A stretch of 64,000 bases of DNA. Origin: Nitrosotalea devaniterrae. Lineage in GTDB: Archaea; Thermoproteota; Nitrososphaeria; Nitrososphaerales; Nitrosopumilaceae. The translations under genes were made by a program, and so were the position numbers. The notes beneath the pieces are model-generated. The model did not search any database, was not told the origin of the DNA, and worked only from the letters and a program-made list of their open reading frames with translations. Location of the stretch: NCBI GenBank assembly GCA_900065925.1, contig LN890280.1, positions 1,294,451 to 1,358,450 on the forward strand, read 5' to 3'. Below are positions 986 through 10,210 of this stretch, in pieces (position 1 is the stretch's first letter; each line of letters opens with the position of its first letter).

Positions 986-2431
986 ATGCTAGATTTAGGA
1001 AATAAAAATTTCACAATTGGGAACATACCAGACGATTTAGTAAATTTCCTCAAGCAGGATACATATTCATTAATAATAAAGGGATTTGCTGGAACAGGCA
1101 AAACTACACTTGCGCTCACAATCCTGCACCAGATGCAAATCAAGACAAACTGCCTGTACATATCTACTAGAATATCTCCTGATCAGCTCTTCCAGTATTA
1201 TCCATGGCTTGAAGAATCCTTTGGCGGTTCAAGAAAAACAAAATTAACGGAATCAACAAGTGACTCAGACAGTTCTCTGGTATTTGTGGATGCAAGACTT
1301 GATGAACCAGGTTCTCTTTTTGAACGTATTACAAATGAGCTGATGGATGTAAAAGCACCAACAATAATCATCGATACATGGGATGCAATAGGATTTTTCA
1401 TGGATAAAGAAGCTTTGATGAACAATGCCAGGGTGTTACAGACATGGAGAGAAAGAGCTGGTGCAAAATTAATTTTTGTCACAGAATCTCCAGATGACAG
1501 TACATTTGATTTTCTCGCAGACGGAGTAATAGAACTAAAACAAGGATATCACAATAACAGAAAAGTCAGAGAGATCTTTTTGTCAAAATTACGTGGCTCT
1601 AGAATAAACAGACCATCGTGTATTTTTTCTCTAAATGACGGAATATTTCGAAGTTATGACCATTACAAACCAAAAGAATTTTCCAACATTACAGTTTCAA
1701 AAGATTTCTTGAGTCAGGCAGATCATGACACCAGTGTAAAAAAATCACACATCCCATCAGGATATGGAGAATTGGACAAATTGTTTGGAGGTGGATTTCC
1801 AAGCAACGGCATAGTCACGCTTGAACTTGATACACATGTAAACACGAGGGTTGCAATGGCGTTTCTTGATAAAATAATAGCAAGCTTTGTGCATCGTGGT
1901 AATCCAGTCGCATTCCAGCCATTTGAAGGAGTGGAGCAAGAGCACATAGATCAGCTTCTCAAGCCCTACCTAGGGTCAAAACCAAAGGGCACTATTGAGA
2001 TACTATCAAACGCAAGCAAGGCAAGGATTGCAGATTATCTATCAAGCCCCAAATATATCGAGAGCAAGAAACGTTTGCAGTACTTTCAGAGTGCAATACG
2101 CAGACTCAAAGCTAGGCACAAAAAAGGACTGCTTAGCATAGTAGGCTCAGACATGGCCACAGGTCTTGCAAATACAGAAAATGGAAGACGTGGAATTGAG
2201 AACCTAGTATCATTTGTAAAATCAAATTCTGCTCTATCAGTATTTGTCCTAAGGCAATCAAAAGACAGTCTTCTTGAATATCTATCAGAGATTTCAGACA
2301 TACATTTGAAAATACTTGAAATAAACGGTTCACTTTTCCTCCAGTCAGAGATTCCATGGTCACACCTGTATGCCATAGTCTCAAAGAGTCACACAGGGCA
2401 TAATGAAATTTCAATAGAACCCATAGTGTAA
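986..2431 (+). CDS. gvpD: GvpD-like / KaiC-type RecA-fold ATPase
   Basis: This 481-residue cytoplasmic protein has a Walker A loop GFAGTGKTT at residues 33-41 and a Walker B strand TIIIDTWD near residue 130. It also has a second, degenerate RecA-like half from about residue 255 (GYGELDKLFGGGFP), in which the P-loop lysine is lost. The stretch STRISPDQLF plus PWLEE after the first domain and the overall length match the archaeal GvpD family, whose haloarchaeal members are ATP-binding regulators of gas-vesicle gene expression. The gene lies 2.2 kb upstream of gvpA on the same strand and is followed by a kinase and a receiver protein, which supports a regulatory role. A generic KaiC-like signalling ATPase is the alternative. 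No GvpE-like activator, its haloarchaeal partner, was recognised. Confidence 0.75.
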   Translation: MLDLGNKNFTIGNIPDDLVNFLKQDTYSLIIKGFAGTGKTTLALTILHQMQIKTNCLYISTRISPDQLFQYYPWLEESFGGSRKTKLTESTSDSDSSLVFVDARLDEPGSLFERITNELMDVKAPTIIIDTWDAIGFFMDKEALMNNARVLQTWRERAGAKLIFVTESPDDSTFDFLADGVIELKQGYHNNRKVREIFLSKLRGSRINRPSCIFSLNDGIFRSYDHYKPKEFSNITVSKDFLSQADHDTSVKKSHIPSGYGELDKLFGGGFPSNGIVTLELDTHVNTRVAMAFLDKIIASFVHRGNPVAFQPFEGVEQEHIDQLLKPYLGSKPKGTIEILSNASKARIADYLSSPKYIESKKRLQYFQSAIRRLKARHKKGLLSIVGSDMATGLANTENGRRGIENLVSFVKSNSALSVFVLRQSKDSLLEYLSEISDIHLKILEINGSLFLQSEIPWSHLYAIVSKSHTGHNEISIEPIV

Positions 2432-3691: not shown

Positions 3692-4486
3692 TTATTGTTT
3701 TATCAGGGTTACCGATGCTTGTTTTACTTCATCAATAAAAAATGGCGGAAGAGCACTGTACGAGTCCCCATAAACATACACTGTCCCAATTCCTTTTGAT
3801 GCAACCTCTGTCAGTTTTGATATCATTTCATCACTTGAAGTGACATTACCAAGTATGACGCTTAGTTTTGTAGGAGAGAGTTCTTCATTAATTAAAATAT
3901 GGTGTGACTTGTCAGATTCAATTTCATGAATATTTGCAATGTCTGTACTTCCACTTGTTATGTAACTATCCACTTGAGGAAAATTATATCCAGGATTGAT
4001 GTATACAATTCCACCTAAACTATGAACATGATCTGAGAATTGTCTAAAGTTCTGCAGGTTATTGGTGCTGCTCTCATTATCAAAAAATATTCCATCAGTT
4101 GGTACAGGAGACTTCATGTAATAATCGATATTTGCAATACTCTCAGATGTATTGAACACGTATCCCAATGTCTTGATTCCGCGATGCTTTAGATTAGATA
4201 TAACCCTCTGCCAGTCTTCGGATAGAGAGTCCCCACATGGGCCACTGCAGGGATTTATTATTACATATTTTATCGTTCTAGGATACTTGTCAGCTGCTTC
4301 ATAGATCTGGTTCCATTGAGGGTCATACGGATCAAAGTATGGAACAACAATCATTTTCACAGTTTGATTTTCGGTCATATTTCCCATAGCATCATCACGC
4401 AACTCAGTTCCTGGCACCTTAAAAGAAAAATACAGTACAAAAGACAAGGCTAAAGATATGATTACGACTGTGAGGATTTTTTTCAA
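3692..4486 (-). CDS. Secreted spherulation-specific family 4 protein
   Basis: The N-terminal hydrophobic segment (about residues 5-20) anchors or exports this 264-residue protein. The rest matches the spherulation-specific family 4 (spherulin-4) domain, a TIM-barrel-like fold related to glycoside hydrolases. Diagnostic stretches are VVPYFDPYDPQW, a beta strand ending in INPCSGPCGD, GIKTLGYV, DGIFFDNES and GGIVYINPGYN. Acidic residues in FFDNE are likely catalytic if it is a glycosidase. It diverges from the gvp operon across a 159-base promoter region and has a larger relative on the other side of that operon. The substrate is unknown; an exopolymer or surface glycan is plausible. Confidence 0.85.
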   Translation of the reverse strand: MKKILTVVIISLALSFVLYFSFKVPGTELRDDAMGNMTENQTVKMIVVPYFDPYDPQWNQIYEAADKYPRTIKYVIINPCSGPCGDSLSEDWQRVISNLKHRGIKTLGYVFNTSESIANIDYYMKSPVPTDGIFFDNESSTNNLQNFRQFSDHVHSLGGIVYINPGYNFPQVDSYITSGSTDIANIHEIESDKSHHILINEELSPTKLSVILGNVTSSDEMISKLTEVASKGIGTVYVYGDSYSALPPFFIDEVKQASVTLIKQ

Positions 4487-4645: not shown

Positions 4646-4867
4646 ATGTCACAGCAACAAATGTACAGACCAATGCTTAACATCTATGATCTAGTTGATC
4701 GTGTCTTAGACAAGGGCCTGGTTATTGATGCAAATCTTTCAGTTTCACTAGTAGGTATAGAAATTCTTGTCATAAGAGCAAGAATAGTAGTATCAGGTAT
4801 TGATACATTCCTAAGATATGCATCGGCACTAGGACTTGCTGCACCGCCTGGATTGCCTCAAAAATAA
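4646..4867 (+). CDS. gvpA: Gas vesicle structural protein GvpA
   Basis: GvpA is the small hydrophobic protein whose ribs form the wall of gas vesicles, hollow intracellular protein shells that give buoyancy. The 73-residue product is close to the usual length of about 70-80. It carries the family core: LVDRVLDKGLVIDA (residues 16-29), VSLVGIEIL, and an alpha-helical segment around SGIDTFLRYA. It is the first gene of the operon, directly behind the promoter, as expected for the most abundant subunit. A start at the ATG for residue 6 (MYRPML) is possible. The C-terminus is short and ends in a Pro-rich tail. Confidence 0.95.
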   Translation: MSQQQMYRPMLNIYDLVDRVLDKGLVIDANLSVSLVGIEILVIRARIVVSGIDTFLRYASALGLAAPPGLPQK

Positions 4868-4882
4868 TAGAGCTGATCCAAT

Positions 4883-5134
4883 TTGGCAGTGTGTCTAGTA
4901 TGCGGTAAATTCGAGGAAGTAGATCTTAAAAAAGCAATGAGTGGAGGCTGGGTTTTTATGAGATGTCCAGAGTGTCATCGAGGTACGCCATTGGATATCA
5001 TCATGGCACACTTGGCAAAGACTGTCACAGAACAATATCTTGATGGATTTTGTCCACGTCACTGGTTCAAAGATAGTGGAATATGCGGTTACTGTAAAAT
5101 TAGAAGAGAAGGTGTGAGCGAAGATGTCTCTTAG
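4883..5134 (+). CDS. Small zinc-ribbon protein inside the gas-vesicle operon
   Basis: This 83-residue protein, probably started by TTG, has four metal-ligand clusters: CLVC near residue 4, CPEC near 30, a CPRHW motif near 55 and CGYC near 66. It could therefore hold two zinc ions. I do not recognise it as any known Gvp protein. It lies 15 bases after gvpA and its last 11 bases overlap gvpJ, so it is translated with the vesicle genes. Possible roles are an assembly factor, a redox or metal sensor or an RNA-binding regulator; the sequence does not decide. It is the least familiar component of the locus. Confidence 0.8.
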   Translation: MAVCLVCGKFEEVDLKKAMSGGWVFMRCPECHRGTPLDIIMAHLAKTVTEQYLDGFCPRHWFKDSGICGYCKIRREGVSEDVS

Positions 5135-5393
5135 TCAGCAACGCCAATTCACACCAGGGCAGCTGACAATAGTAGACTTGGTGGACAGAATTTTAGACAA
5201 GGGAGTAGTGATTACAGGTGACATTACAATTTCCATAGTCGGTGTAGATTTGCTTTCTTTGAAGATAAATCTCGTAATAGCATCACTTGAGACTGCAAAA
5301 CGATACGGCATAAAACTCCCGTGGGAAAGATGGGAGAAAGAACAAAAACGCATACCTCAGAAAATTACACCACAGAAACATGCAAAGAGGTAA
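5124..5393 (+). CDS. gvpJ: GvpA-family minor gas vesicle protein, GvpJ type
   Basis: This is a second member of the GvpA/J/M family, 89 residues long. The core VDLVDRILDKGVVITGDITI and the following SIVGVDLLSLKI are closer to GvpJ/M/S than to GvpA: a Gly-Asp-Ile pattern replaces the Asp-Ala of GvpA after the DKG motif. It also carries a charged basic C-terminal tail (about residues 65-89). GvpJ-type proteins are minor components needed for assembly and for shell shape. The start ATG lies inside the end of the zinc-ribbon gene (11-base overlap), which points to coupled translation. The choice between J and M is not secure. Confidence 0.88.
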   Translation: MSLSQQRQFTPGQLTIVDLVDRILDKGVVITGDITISIVGVDLLSLKINLVIASLETAKRYGIKLPWERWEKEQKRIPQKITPQKHAKR

Positions 5394-5402
5394 CGCATTA
5401 CA

Positions 5403-5888
5403 ATGAGTCAGAAGATCAGCAAATCAAAAAATGCAACTATACAACAAGTAAATCTAGATGGTGAGAATCTACAAAAGGGACTTGCAAAGCTTGTACTGGT
5501 CATAATCGAATTGCTCAGACAGGTGTTAGAAAAACAAGCCCAGAGAAGAATTTCATCTGGCACACTGACCAAAGTAGAGGTTGAAAGACTTGGACTTGCC
5601 TTTATGCAGATAAAACAAACAATAACTGACATATCTGACCAGTTTGGATTTTCGCCACAAGAGTTTGATATCAGATTAAACCAATCTCACAATAAATTGA
5701 CAGGCACTTCAACACAGACAACTCTTGTCGAGGTAGTTGATCACTTGCTTGACAAGGGAGTATTACTTGGAGGACAAGTAAAAATTTCTGTTGCAGACAT
5801 TGATTTGGTCATACTTGATCTCTTGGGTGTATTGTCTGCAGTACATGGAGTCAAAAAATCAACTAAGAGGAGAAACAAGTCAAAATGA
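5403..5888 (+). CDS. gvpK: GvpK fused to a C-terminal GvpA/J-like domain
   Basis: Residues about 20-95 are a clear GvpK: GLAKLVLVIIELLRQVLEKQ, then a GTLTKVEVERLGLAFM helix and FGFSPQEFDI. After a 10-residue linker, residues about 106-150 carry a second vesicle domain of GvpA/J/M type (LVEVVDHLLDKGVLLGGQV, then ISVADIDLVILDLL). GvpK is normally a separate protein of about 100-120 residues, so the 161-residue length reflects a fusion. The operon thus encodes three GvpA-family domains, one covalently tied to the assembly factor GvpK. The next gene starts with ATG overlapping this stop codon (ATGA). The fusion seems genuine because the frame is continuous and both parts are well conserved. Confidence 0.9.
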   Translation: MSQKISKSKNATIQQVNLDGENLQKGLAKLVLVIIELLRQVLEKQAQRRISSGTLTKVEVERLGLAFMQIKQTITDISDQFGFSPQEFDIRLNQSHNKLTGTSTQTTLVEVVDHLLDKGVLLGGQVKISVADIDLVILDLLGVLSAVHGVKKSTKRRNKSK

Positions 5889-6625
5889 AGACAATAGGCA
5901 AGTATGTTTACTGTATAATGGATGGAGGTGGAATAAGCCAGAATTTTGGCAAAATTGGCCTTGAGAATAGTGAAGTGTACACCATACACCACAGGGACAT
6001 TAGTGCAGTTGTGAGTAAAATAACATTCAAGGAGATGCAACCAGACGTTGACAGCATCATAACGCATCAAAAGGTTGTAGAAAATTCAAGAAGTATTGGA
6101 ACTACCCTACCAGTAAGATTTGGAATAATGTTCAAGACAGACGATGGCGTAAAACAGCTTCTAGTAAAATCATACAATGACTTTAGATCAAAGATGAACA
6201 AATTACATGGAAAAGAAGAGTTTGGAATCAAGGTCATAATAGAAAAAGAAGGCATGGAGAAGATCAAAAATTTAGTAGCGACAAATTCAAAGGAAGTCAA
6301 AAAGATGAAAAAAGAAATTTCCAAGTCAGGAGACGGTGAAGCATATTTTCTCAAGATGCGAATGGACGAGTCCCTCAAAAATGAAACATTACGAAAAATT
6401 GATGAGATAACAGGCGTAATTCACAAAGAACTTGCAGACATTGCAATAGACAGTGCAGTTCTAAAATCAGACTTGCAGGAGATAGTCCTCAATACAGCAT
6501 ACCTTATTGATAAAAACGAGATTACAAAATTCATTGACGGTGTAGAGAAGATCAAAACACAGTCAAAAAAACAAGGACTAGTGATTCACCACAGCGGCCC
6601 ATGGGCGCCATATTCATTTTGTTGA
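5885..6625 (+). CDS. gvpF: Gas vesicle protein of the GvpF/GvpL family
   Basis: This is a 246-residue member of the GvpF/L family, accessory proteins that bind GvpA and act early in vesicle assembly. Signature stretches are the N-terminal GKYVYCIMDGG, then TLPVRFGIMF near residue 77, and the C-terminal GPWAPYSFC, a near-invariant family ending. A long helical, Lys- and Glu-rich middle (about residues 110-190) fits the coiled-coil domain of the family. Only one F/L gene is present, whereas many clusters have two. The ATG overlaps the gvpK stop by four bases. Whether to call it F or L is arbitrary. Confidence 0.92.
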   Translation: MKTIGKYVYCIMDGGGISQNFGKIGLENSEVYTIHHRDISAVVSKITFKEMQPDVDSIITHQKVVENSRSIGTTLPVRFGIMFKTDDGVKQLLVKSYNDFRSKMNKLHGKEEFGIKVIIEKEGMEKIKNLVATNSKEVKKMKKEISKSGDGEAYFLKMRMDESLKNETLRKIDEITGVIHKELADIAIDSAVLKSDLQEIVLNTAYLIDKNEITKFIDGVEKIKTQSKKQGLVIHHSGPWAPYSFC

Positions 6626-6635
6626 GGTACATGTC

Positions 6636-6857
6636 ATGCTGATAACATTTTTGATTATGAAATTAACATTCGGATCAATTTTGAACGAATGTAATCGTCT
6701 TGCATTGGAAGCAGACAAGGCAGAACGTGCAAGATGGATAAAAACAAGATTGATCAGACTTCGTACAGATTATGAGAAAGGAGTTATTGATGACAAGGCA
6801 TACGCCATAAGAGAAGAAGAAATTCTAAAAGATTTACGTAGTGGAGCAGAGACCTAG
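6636..6857 (+). CDS. gvpG: GvpG-like gas vesicle protein
   Basis: This small helical protein (73 residues, or 66 from the ATG at 6657) resembles GvpG. It has a short hydrophobic N-terminus followed by an amphipathic helical hairpin, with the typical EKGVIDDKAY pattern and an REEEILKDL ending. GvpG proteins interact with GvpF/L, and the gene follows gvpF/L here as in many clusters. The last 17 bases overlap the start of the kinase gene. The family is short and poorly conserved, so the identification rests on the hairpin pattern plus position. Confidence 0.7.
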   Translation: MLITFLIMKLTFGSILNECNRLALEADKAERARWIKTRLIRLRTDYEKGVIDDKAYAIREEEILKDLRSGAET

Positions 6858-7980
6858 ATTGAGCCTATACGACGAAAACGACAGGGCCATAATGCATGCA
6901 TTACAAGTAAAAAAAATCCAGAATCACATAAAAGATCAGGTAGAAAAAGTAAAGATGGATGCATTCACAGCCCGTGAGGAGCTCATACAAAGAAGAGCTG
7001 AGAAAATAGAACAGGTCAGACAAAAATTAAACGATACTACACTATCTATAATCAAAAAACACGAATTGATAAAAGACAGATTAAACCAGGAAGCAGTCTT
7101 CAGAGAGGCAAGCATTCGTGTAAACCGAGGTCTTGAAGCACTTGAAAAATTCATCCAGATTCTTCGTGATACAGAAATGGAAGATGAGATGCTCAAAAAA
7201 GCAATTCGTGATCCTATAATATCAAGTACTGCAAAATCAGAGGCAAGAAAAATTATCACTTCAGAATTTTTCAAATCAGTTCAAAAACAGCTAGTCATGC
7301 AAACAGAATTTATCAATATTGCAGCCCATGAGCTTCGTACACCAATCATGCCCATACTGGTAAACGTGGAATTGCTCACAGAAAAACTAGGAAGCGACAA
7401 TGATGAAATAAAAATAATTGTGCGCAATGCGAAAAGGCTTCACAGACTTACGGATAACATCCTAAGTGTAACAAGAATAGAAAGTAAGACACTCACATTA
7501 AAAAAAGAAACATTTGACATCAATGCACTCATAGAAAATGTCATCAAAGACGAGAAAGCACACATAGAAAATAAAAATGTCAATATCATAGTGAAAAATG
7601 ACGGTCATCCCATAGACATTGAAGCAGACAGAGACAGGATAGCTCAAGTGATATCAAATGTGTTGCACAATGCAATCAAGTTTACAAAAACTGGAACAAT
7701 TACCATAATGTCAAAAGTTCAGGATGATGATGTAACTGTAAGTGTAAAAGATAATGGACCAGGAATAGATCATCAAATAATTCCAATTTTGTTTTCAAAG
7801 TTTGTCACAAAATCAGACAGAGGAACTGGATTAGGCCTATACATTTGCAAAAACATCATAGAGGCACATGATGGAAAAATTGGAGCAGAAAATAGTCCAG
7901 ATGGGGGAGCAATTTTTTCATTCAGATTGCCGGTGAAAAACAAACATTCACACACAAATTCTACACACGATGAGACATAA
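6841..7980 (+). CDS. Coiled-coil sensor histidine kinase at the end of the gas-vesicle operon
   Basis: The 379-residue cytoplasmic kinase begins with about 150 residues of charged helix, probably coiled coil. The H-box follows (INIAAHELRTPI, His at residue 163), then an N-box (NVLHNAIKF), G1 (DNGPGID) and G2 (GTGLGLYICKN). No transmembrane segment is visible. The GTG start overlaps gvpG by 17 bases, so kinase and vesicle proteins are made from one mRNA. A soluble kinase with a long helical N-terminus could read vesicle assembly or a binding partner. No receiver follows it; the receiver at 3309 is a candidate partner. Its catalytic region closely resembles that of the kinase at 2498. Confidence 0.9.
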   Translation: MEQRPRLSLYDENDRAIMHALQVKKIQNHIKDQVEKVKMDAFTAREELIQRRAEKIEQVRQKLNDTTLSIIKKHELIKDRLNQEAVFREASIRVNRGLEALEKFIQILRDTEMEDEMLKKAIRDPIISSTAKSEARKIITSEFFKSVQKQLVMQTEFINIAAHELRTPIMPILVNVELLTEKLGSDNDEIKIIVRNAKRLHRLTDNILSVTRIESKTLTLKKETFDINALIENVIKDEKAHIENKNVNIIVKNDGHPIDIEADRDRIAQVISNVLHNAIKFTKTGTITIMSKVQDDDVTVSVKDNGPGIDHQIIPILFSKFVTKSDRGTGLGLYICKNIIEAHDGKIGAENSPDGGAIFSFRLPVKNKHSHTNSTHDET

Positions 7981-8016: not shown

Positions 8017-10032
8017 TTAATTTTGATTGGTTCCAGAGGTTTGATTACTAGACATTCCAATTGGTACATGGTCCTTGAATATTGAAAAACTTGTCTTGGT
8101 GCCATCGATTGTAACTTTTGACTCGCTCCACTTGTTTCCATTACTTGGGTCTACCAGACGAAATACATAGTCACCCACCTTGAGGTTTGAGAAATTTGCT
8201 TCTCCATGATAATTAATTTTTGATTCAGATAAAAGATTGCCATTATTGTCCAAAAGGTCTACTGAAAAGCTGCTATTCTTTGCAGACAAGAGTTTTGATT
8301 GTTCATCATATGCCTTGACAGTAACAAGACTGTCAACCATCGGAGGCCATGGTGTGACAATTGACACTTCTCTTGCAACTCCAGGATACAAAAATACTGG
8401 CCAGTAAGAAGAGGACATGTGCTGACCAATTTTTACATCAATTGTATAATGATCATTGTTCATAATAGTGGGCTCTAGCCAAAAACGCAATGTTTGTCCA
8501 TGGATATCAGTAAAGTCCATGGCCCATGTTTTGTTGTCTTGATCTTTTATGTATACAATAGCATTGGCAACAGGAGTAACACCATCATTGTAAAACACAT
8601 TAGGACGCATACCACCTGGCGGGGATAAATGTAAAGTCAAATCCTTTGGTGCCAAGTTTTTACTAGGATCAAGGCGTACATATTCAATGTCAGCGCACAT
8701 GCCATTTGCATAAACTTCAATTTTGTATGTATGACCAAGTGGTAGTGAATCAATCTCAAATGGATTTCCAGATATAGAATCAATGTTTCGGTAAATTGAT
8801 TGGCTTGAATCCTGGTAAATCTTCAAGGATACACCATAGCTATAGGCCCTGTCTCCCGTTGCATATGATATTGTGGCATGAATAGAGCCAGTGTGAGATA
8901 CTTGACTTGACTTTGGTGCAGAGTAGACATAACTCTGATTAGACAAGACATGTTTTTTCATCACTGGTAAGCTTGTTTGGTTTACAGGAATTGTATGATT
9001 TGTTCCATAGAATGCAGTAAGTGTGAGATTACCTGCAGGGGTGATTGTTCTTGTATTACTTTTTGTCAAATCATCCCAATGATCTAGCGTATAGTTTCCA
9101 AAGTTTGACAGGGTTACAGTATAATTGTTTCCAGAAATGGCACTAAATGTAAATGGTGTAAACCCAGAGCTGCTGTTTTTTCCAAATGTTACTACAGTCC
9201 AGAGTCCAGTCAGTGGTGTACCTTTAGTAGTTGACGCATTGACTGTTACAAATACAGTATTGTTTTGTGGTACATCAAGCAAGCTCATTAATGTATCAAG
9301 ATATCCTGGAAGAGAGTTGAACGGATTAGGTAGTGTAGAGTTTGATACGAACATGTATTGTACTAGTCTTGACATGTTTTCAACATAGGTTTTGTTTGTA
9401 GCATTTACATTGTATGCAATAAAGGAAAAATTTGACTTGGTGAAATTTTTGTGCCATCCTTCAAATGATGATACCGTAGGAAGATTTGGATTATCATAAA
9501 TTACCAAGTTGTTTACAGTTCCAATATATGAAGGCAGTGTATCTATGCCAGGATTGCCCACAGTAAAGTTCAGTCCAACTGATTTTGAATAATTTGTCAG
9601 ACTTGCATAAAATGTCTCATTTCCTTTCACATTTGACATTTGATCAAAAAATATTCCGTTTACATGATACCAATCTTTGTAGTCGTTGATGTAACTTGTA
9701 ATTTCATTGTAACCAATATTTGCAGTATAGATATATCCAATCACTTGGATTCCAGAAGACTGGAGTTTTTGCACACCATACAGATAGTTTGTATCTCTTG
9801 TACCAGGTCCACTGTCGGGATTGATTATTGCAACAATTGGAACGGATGGATGGTTTTGCTTTTCTTGTACAAGTGTATTCCAGTCATTTCCAGGATAACT
9901 ATACAGAGGTACAATCATGCCTGTTTTAGGCAGGCCATATGCATTTTGTAGAGATCCCAATGACCCACATATCACAAAAACAAGCACGATTGAGGCCAAA
10001 ATCGAGGTTTTCTTGTACAAATCACGACTCAT
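8017..10032 (-). CDS. Secreted protein with spherulation-specific family 4 domain and Ig-like repeats
   Basis: From the ATG at 10032 the product has about 671 residues. It has a signal segment (about residues 8-30), then a spherulin-4 domain (about 38-250) with VPLYSYPGNDW, IINPDSGPG, VIGYIYT, NGIFFDQMS and TVGNPGID. About 400 residues of beta-rich modules follow, including a cell-wall-type repeat and two carboxypeptidase-regulatory-like or Ig-like domains (DGVTPVANAIVYI near 500). An ATG 13 codons further upstream would put charged residues before the signal and is less likely. It is the larger relative of the protein at 3692-4486. The pair encloses the gas-vesicle operon. The domain make-up suggests a cell-surface glycan-binding or glycan-cleaving protein. 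Confidence 0.82.
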   Translation of the reverse strand: MSRDLYKKTSILASIVLVFVICGSLGSLQNAYGLPKTGMIVPLYSYPGNDWNTLVQEKQNHPSVPIVAIINPDSGPGTRDTNYLYGVQKLQSSGIQVIGYIYTANIGYNEITSYINDYKDWYHVNGIFFDQMSNVKGNETFYASLTNYSKSVGLNFTVGNPGIDTLPSYIGTVNNLVIYDNPNLPTVSSFEGWHKNFTKSNFSFIAYNVNATNKTYVENMSRLVQYMFVSNSTLPNPFNSLPGYLDTLMSLLDVPQNNTVFVTVNASTTKGTPLTGLWTVVTFGKNSSSGFTPFTFSAISGNNYTVTLSNFGNYTLDHWDDLTKSNTRTITPAGNLTLTAFYGTNHTIPVNQTSLPVMKKHVLSNQSYVYSAPKSSQVSHTGSIHATISYATGDRAYSYGVSLKIYQDSSQSIYRNIDSISGNPFEIDSLPLGHTYKIEVYANGMCADIEYVRLDPSKNLAPKDLTLHLSPPGGMRPNVFYNDGVTPVANAIVYIKDQDNKTWAMDFTDIHGQTLRFWLEPTIMNNDHYTIDVKIGQHMSSSYWPVFLYPGVAREVSIVTPWPPMVDSLVTVKAYDEQSKLLSAKNSSFSVDLLDNNGNLLSESKINYHGEANFSNLKVGDYVFRLVDPSNGNKWSESKVTIDGTKTSFSIFKDHVPIGMSSNQTSGTNQN

Positions 10033-10210
10033 TAATTTACACCCTAAGCCAAAGCAGGGCTCTTTCCCCATACTCCATCGTCGTGCAAGAAATTATCTAC
10101 GTGCATAGAAAATAGTCTGATTTATCAGATATCACAATATGCACAGAAATTTCTAGAACAATCATACTTTATCAAAATGTAACAATGTTCTAGAAGATTC
10201 TAACCAATTA

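Follow-up and report, generated by a model that had tools for sequence, protein, structure and literature searches.

Organization of the gas-vesicle cluster

The DNA analysed here (the window) is a stretch of 64,000 nucleotides of the genome of Nitrosotalea devaniterrae, an ammonia-oxidising archaeon (AOA), and it carries a gas-vesicle cluster in which gvpK is joined to a shell-protein domain and lies between gvpJ and gvpF/L (Table 1). The genes from 4646 to 7980 are tightly packed, with overlaps or gaps of less than 16 bases. Upstream of this apparent operon is a GvpD-like P-loop/KaiC protein that is likely a regulator, so that a regulator of haloarchaeal type stands beside a structural gene set of bacterial type.

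Table 1. Genes and domains of the gas-vesicle cluster, in window coordinates
Feature	Position	Strand	Evidence and remarks
GvpD-like P-loop/KaiC protein, upstream	986-2431	+	PF07088 3.7e-15, above cut-off; 26% identity to H. salinarum GvpD, E 1e-16
Two Spherulin4-domain (PF12138) proteins flanking the operon	3692-4486, 8017-10071	-	Opposite strand
gvpA, main shell protein, 73 aa	4646-4867	+	PF00741 2.2e-13; GvpA profiles best
Cysteine-rich zinc-ribbon-like protein, 83 aa	4883-5134	+	No Pfam match above cut-off; C4 C7 C28 C31 C57 H60 C68 C71 invariant in 34/34 copies
gvpJ, shell paralogue, 89 aa	5124-5393	+	PF00741 3.9e-16; J profile best
gvpK::gvpS fusion gene, 161 aa	5403-5888	+	Two Pfam families above cut-off, one frame
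GvpK domain, residues 16-94	5448-5684	+	PF05121 8.9e-22; predicted two-helix hairpin H20-52/H57-81; AlphaFold pLDDT ~64-80
Variable linker, residues 95-105	5685-5717	+	Mean pairwise identity 0.19 vs 0.60 for each domain
GvpS-type shell domain, residues 106-148	5718-5846	+	PF00741, S profile best; predicted helix-strand-strand, without second helix
gvpF/L	5885-6625	+	PF06386 8.8e-58; single genome match, only copy; start overlaps gvpK::S stop
gvpG-like, 73 aa	6636-6857	+	PF05120 7.7e-5, under cut-off; position kept in fused-type clusters
Histidine kinase, 3' end of apparent operon	6841-7980	+	HisKA + HATPase_c; orthologues in same place in most fused-type clusters

The fusion gene reads from ATG to stop without an internal stop codon, and its product matches both GvpK (PF05121, 77.4 bits) and Gas_vesicle (PF00741, 34 bits, E 3.3e-8, residues 107-140, covering 34 of 39 model positions) above their cut-offs of 25. 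The C-terminal piece by itself (5712-5885) keeps the PF00741 match (2.9e-9), and residues 102-149 give gap-free alignments with two GvpA chains of known structure, 8gbs (1.4e-4) and 7r1c (2.3e-3). The sequence-only reading, which had proposed a GvpK and a GvpA-family domain in one frame, is thus borne out. No start codon ahead of the shell domain is conserved across the fused proteins, so a single polypeptide is expected, and we reject a separate S protein made from an internal translation start. The AlphaFold model of the whole fusion has a mean pLDDT of 54, and all matches in a fold search with it were non-significant. When the S domain was modelled alone, at low confidence, its top PDB matches were two solved GvpA structures, also non-significantly (E ~0.3). 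No solved GvpK structure was found among the structure searches.

The window genome is a single contig of 1.805 Mb with one GvpK, three GvpA-family domains (A, J and K::S) and one F/L; therefore, no separate gvpS or gvpM is left in it. The same three GvpA-family domains per cluster were found in nine further fused-type genomes. One genome of family f3 (G452) has two diverged fused-type clusters (L089, L090), with six GvpA-family domains in total. Gene order A-Zn-J-K::S-F/L-G is kept in fused-type clusters, with the exception of the deep-branching G433. The AAA+ ATPase GvpN has no match in the window genome (G000) and none above its family cut-off in 10 fused-type genomes, while it is present in three unfused relatives (322-341 bits). 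The zinc-ribbon-like gene occurs in almost every fused-type AOA cluster and was not found in any unfused cluster examined; the 83-aa protein that it encodes between gvpA and gvpJ is possibly a new gas-vesicle accessory protein. This GvpN-free content, combined with a zinc-ribbon-like gene of invariant cysteines, is more unusual than the fusion itself.

Distribution and conservation of the fusion

We searched 400 sampled genomes of the order Nitrososphaerales for GvpK and found it in 34; most of the genomes sampled in the genus and in the order are without it. When the open reading frames of these 34 genomes were read singly, 31 had the fusion, two had an unfused GvpK (G410 and G416, of other families) and one had a broken frame (G644). 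AOA loci from a contig scan agree with this count of K-then-shell fusions. The recurrence of the same unbroken frame in 31 of the 34 GvpK-bearing genomes argues that the fusion arises neither from chance nor from sequencing error, and we dismiss the isolated chimera that had been raised as a possible refutation. In one metagenome-assembled genome (G480; L040 5437-6543, L093 805-1911) K::S continues in frame into GvpF/L, giving a protein of 368 aa; this may reflect either a genuine fusion of three genes or a deletion introduced by the assembly.

Both halves of the fusion are under strong purifying selection. Among 21 fused proteins the mean pairwise identity is 0.60 for K and 0.60 for S, and it drops to 0.15-0.19 in the linker and at both ends, which vary freely. 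Between the window fusion and three close relatives, dN/dS is ~0.03-0.07 in the K part and ~0.05-0.12 in the S part.

Subtype of the shell half

The sequence-only reading assigned the shell half to the GvpA/J/M group. We built profiles for GvpA, GvpJ, GvpM and GvpS, the last being a paralogue encoded upstream of and near gvpK in bacteria. The GvpS profile was the best in all 40 fused proteins tested, and the shell half of the window protein scored 46.0 bits with S, 26.9 with J and 20.9 with M. A tree of the 49-column shell domain separates S, K::S and S::K from A, J and M with modest support (74/84); this careful tree has 74 rows, and a larger one of 187 rows was built in quick mode only. GvpM groups with haloarchaeal-type J in the trees, apart from S and the fusions. 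It should be noted that the S/J distinction is based on 43-49 columns and that the S score of some Nitrososphaeraceae rows exceeds their J score by just 3 bits. The best NCBIfam match of the window protein is the GvpM model NF046091, at 27.1 bits (2.5e-6), far below its cut-off of 109. Moreover, the shell domain lies inside the gvpK gene, whereas haloarchaeal gvpM is a gene downstream of gvpL. Judged by the profiles, with the tree pointing the same way at modest support, the shell half is of the GvpS type; the earlier label holds for the GvpA superfamily (PF00741) and fails for the J/M subtype. We reject a GvpJ identity because profiles and tree disagree with it, and a separate gvpJ is present. 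A GvpM identity is rejected as well, since S outscores M in 40 of 40 proteins and the NF046091 cut-off is not reached.

Related fusions and ancestry

The earlier reading took GvpK and GvpJ/M to be separate proteins in known clusters, but fusions of K to a shell domain are known from cyanobacteria. A 2024 review noted a GvpA-like domain in the GvpK of Anabaena flos-aquae and suggested that work on nucleation could make use of the fused GvpK of cyanobacteria (PMC10903477). In the GvpK of Nostoc sphaeroides plasmid p4 (WP_118171797, 157 aa), K spans residues 18-99 and a shell domain, best matched by the S profile, residues 115-153. Cyanobacterial GvpK (Anabaena flos-aquae, Nostoc) has K first and then an S-best shell domain, with length and linker similar to those of the AOA fusion. 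The Nostoc protein matches the AOA fusion profile with an hhalign probability of 98.8%, and identity across 123 residues is ~27%. Its core gene order, J-K::S-F-G, is the same as in the AOA cluster, which may point to a common origin of the two fusions; the cyanobacterial cluster differs in having GvpC and GvpN, and the zinc-ribbon gene is not listed there. A tree test with one long-branched sequence for the cyanobacteria did not reject the grouping of AOA and cyanobacterial K::S in a single clade (p-AU 0.54). The review and the Nostoc protein also rule out the view that a fusion of K to a shell domain had never been seen before. The AOA fusion is therefore an archaeal case of an already known architecture, and the earlier claim of novelty was too strong. 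No publication on the AOA K::S fusion was found in the non-subscription literature searched.

The mirror arrangement, S::K, has the same two domains as the AOA fusion in the opposite order and occurs in methanotrophs, Chloroflexota and Acidobacteriota. It is found on plasmids of Methylocella tundrae (WP_197732044) and Methylosinus sp. C49 (WP_142864684), and in six of the 49 loci examined in Chloroflexota and Acidobacteriota, where K::S was found in none. The Methylocella/Methylosinus S::K genes (L052 5608-6243, L104 5608-6267) are annotated as GvpJ despite having an S-type shell half joined to GvpK, and a separate J gene comes next. In the GvpK tree S::K is scattered, forcing at least three label changes, so these fusions probably arose in separate events. 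The AOA K::S proteins form one group in this tree (support 98/99; 100/99 in a second tree), and among the sampled AOA the fusion arose once.

This AOA group lies inside the bacterial-type GvpK clade, and the haloarchaeal J-K-L-M type stands apart on a long branch (100/100); descent of the AOA K from the haloarchaeal type is accordingly rejected. The haloarchaeal type (H. salinarum, G001, G410, G416) has GvpJ, GvpK and GvpL as the AOA cluster does, and H. salinarum also shares the GvpD-like regulator; it differs in that K is unfused, M is in place of S, and GvpN and GvpO are present. One of its members, G416, encodes a 315-aa GvpM-type protein (L092 6117-7064) whose C-terminal part matches Vps36 of ESCRT-II (PH/GLUE-like, 2.3e-8, above cut-off). 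Bacillus megaterium (PMC11445434), Streptomyces and Chloroflexota have the same families encoded by close genes, but as two polypeptides with S upstream of K.

A possible role in vesicle nucleation

Published work on other systems ties both partners to a proposed seeding step. In B. megaterium, GvpA2 and GvpL no longer interact once S, K or J is deleted, these three proteins were proposed as vesicle seeders, and S and J remain in urea-washed purified bicones (PMC11445434). In haloarchaea, GvpL has J, K and M as binding partners (PMC7688916). Repeated fusion of the same two partners is, in addition, standard evidence of physical partnership. Taking these data together, we find it somewhat probable that K::S serves the gas-vesicle operon as a fused GvpK-GvpS nucleation factor; its location, stoichiometry and recruitment function we infer from the published S/K/J-dependent seeding and the recurrent fusion in both orders. 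One chain would bring K and S into the seeding complex at a fixed 1:1 ratio, thereby standing in for two seeding proteins that elsewhere must meet. The S domain, whose predicted helix-strand-strand corresponds to the portion of the GvpA fold that faces inwards, would join GvpJ in the initial ring or at the tip of the cone, and the helical GvpK domain would be carried on the nascent nucleus through the S tether. There, the tethered K domain could recruit the single GvpF/L, which would bring GvpA for growth. The sequence-only reading had suggested a place for GvpK in the shell or at the tip where growth begins; a position at the tip or nucleus is plausible, and published work has already put it forward for GvpS and GvpJ.

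Two studies did not detect GvpK in preparations of gas vesicles (PMC7688916, PMC11445434); this speaks against an anchoring of K in the wall, at any rate in systems that make K as a separate protein. This result fits a distinctly less probable account, in which the fusion fixes only co-expression and stoichiometry, K faces the cytosol and S serves as a solubility or docking module outside the wall. GvpS tolerates fusions in every configuration tested (PMC11445434), and S and K are close in unfused bacteria, so their joining could have come about by chance from the order of the genes, with no selective benefit. However, the same pair has been fused repeatedly and in both orders, and all intact AOA copies of that K lineage keep the fusion, while joints of no selective value would be expected to come apart again as well as to arise.

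The lack of GvpN allows two further readings, both of which we regard as doubtful. According to the first, a rather speculative proposal, the AOA operon forms a gas-vesicle system that works independently of GvpN and consists of GvpA, J, K::S, one F/L, G and the zinc-ribbon-like protein, in which K::S would be the only dedicated nucleator and which would either form small bicones only or use the zinc protein for the cone-to-cylinder step. According to the second, which seems to us improbable, the operon is a remnant or now serves another purpose, AOA are without gas vesicles, and K::S belongs to another protein shell or is functionless. No description of AOA gas vesicles was found in the literature searched, and the operon might therefore make something other than buoyant vesicles; the rarity of GvpK among the sampled genomes of the genus and order points the same way. 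Against decay stand the strong purifying selection on both domains, a GvpA that is 94-97% identical across the family sampled and a gene order intact in dozens of genomes. Finally, although M is carried by haloarchaeal-type clusters, GvpS and GvpM are treated as homologues in PMC11445434 and the GvpM model is the best NCBIfam match, a J- or M-type shell half is very improbable given the profile scores, the trees and the true gvpJ adjoining gvpK::S.

Implications

To our knowledge, GvpK is always required for gas vesicles and yet has no assigned job, and how a vesicle starts is an open question. The occurrence of K::S in cyanobacteria and archaea, together with S::K in other bacteria, suggests that K and S act as a single unit. 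The fusion that we favour as a nucleation factor offers a single-chain handle for isolating the vesicle nucleus, and the AOA operon, with just six genes and no GvpN, is compact enough to be tried for vesicle formation in a heterologous host.
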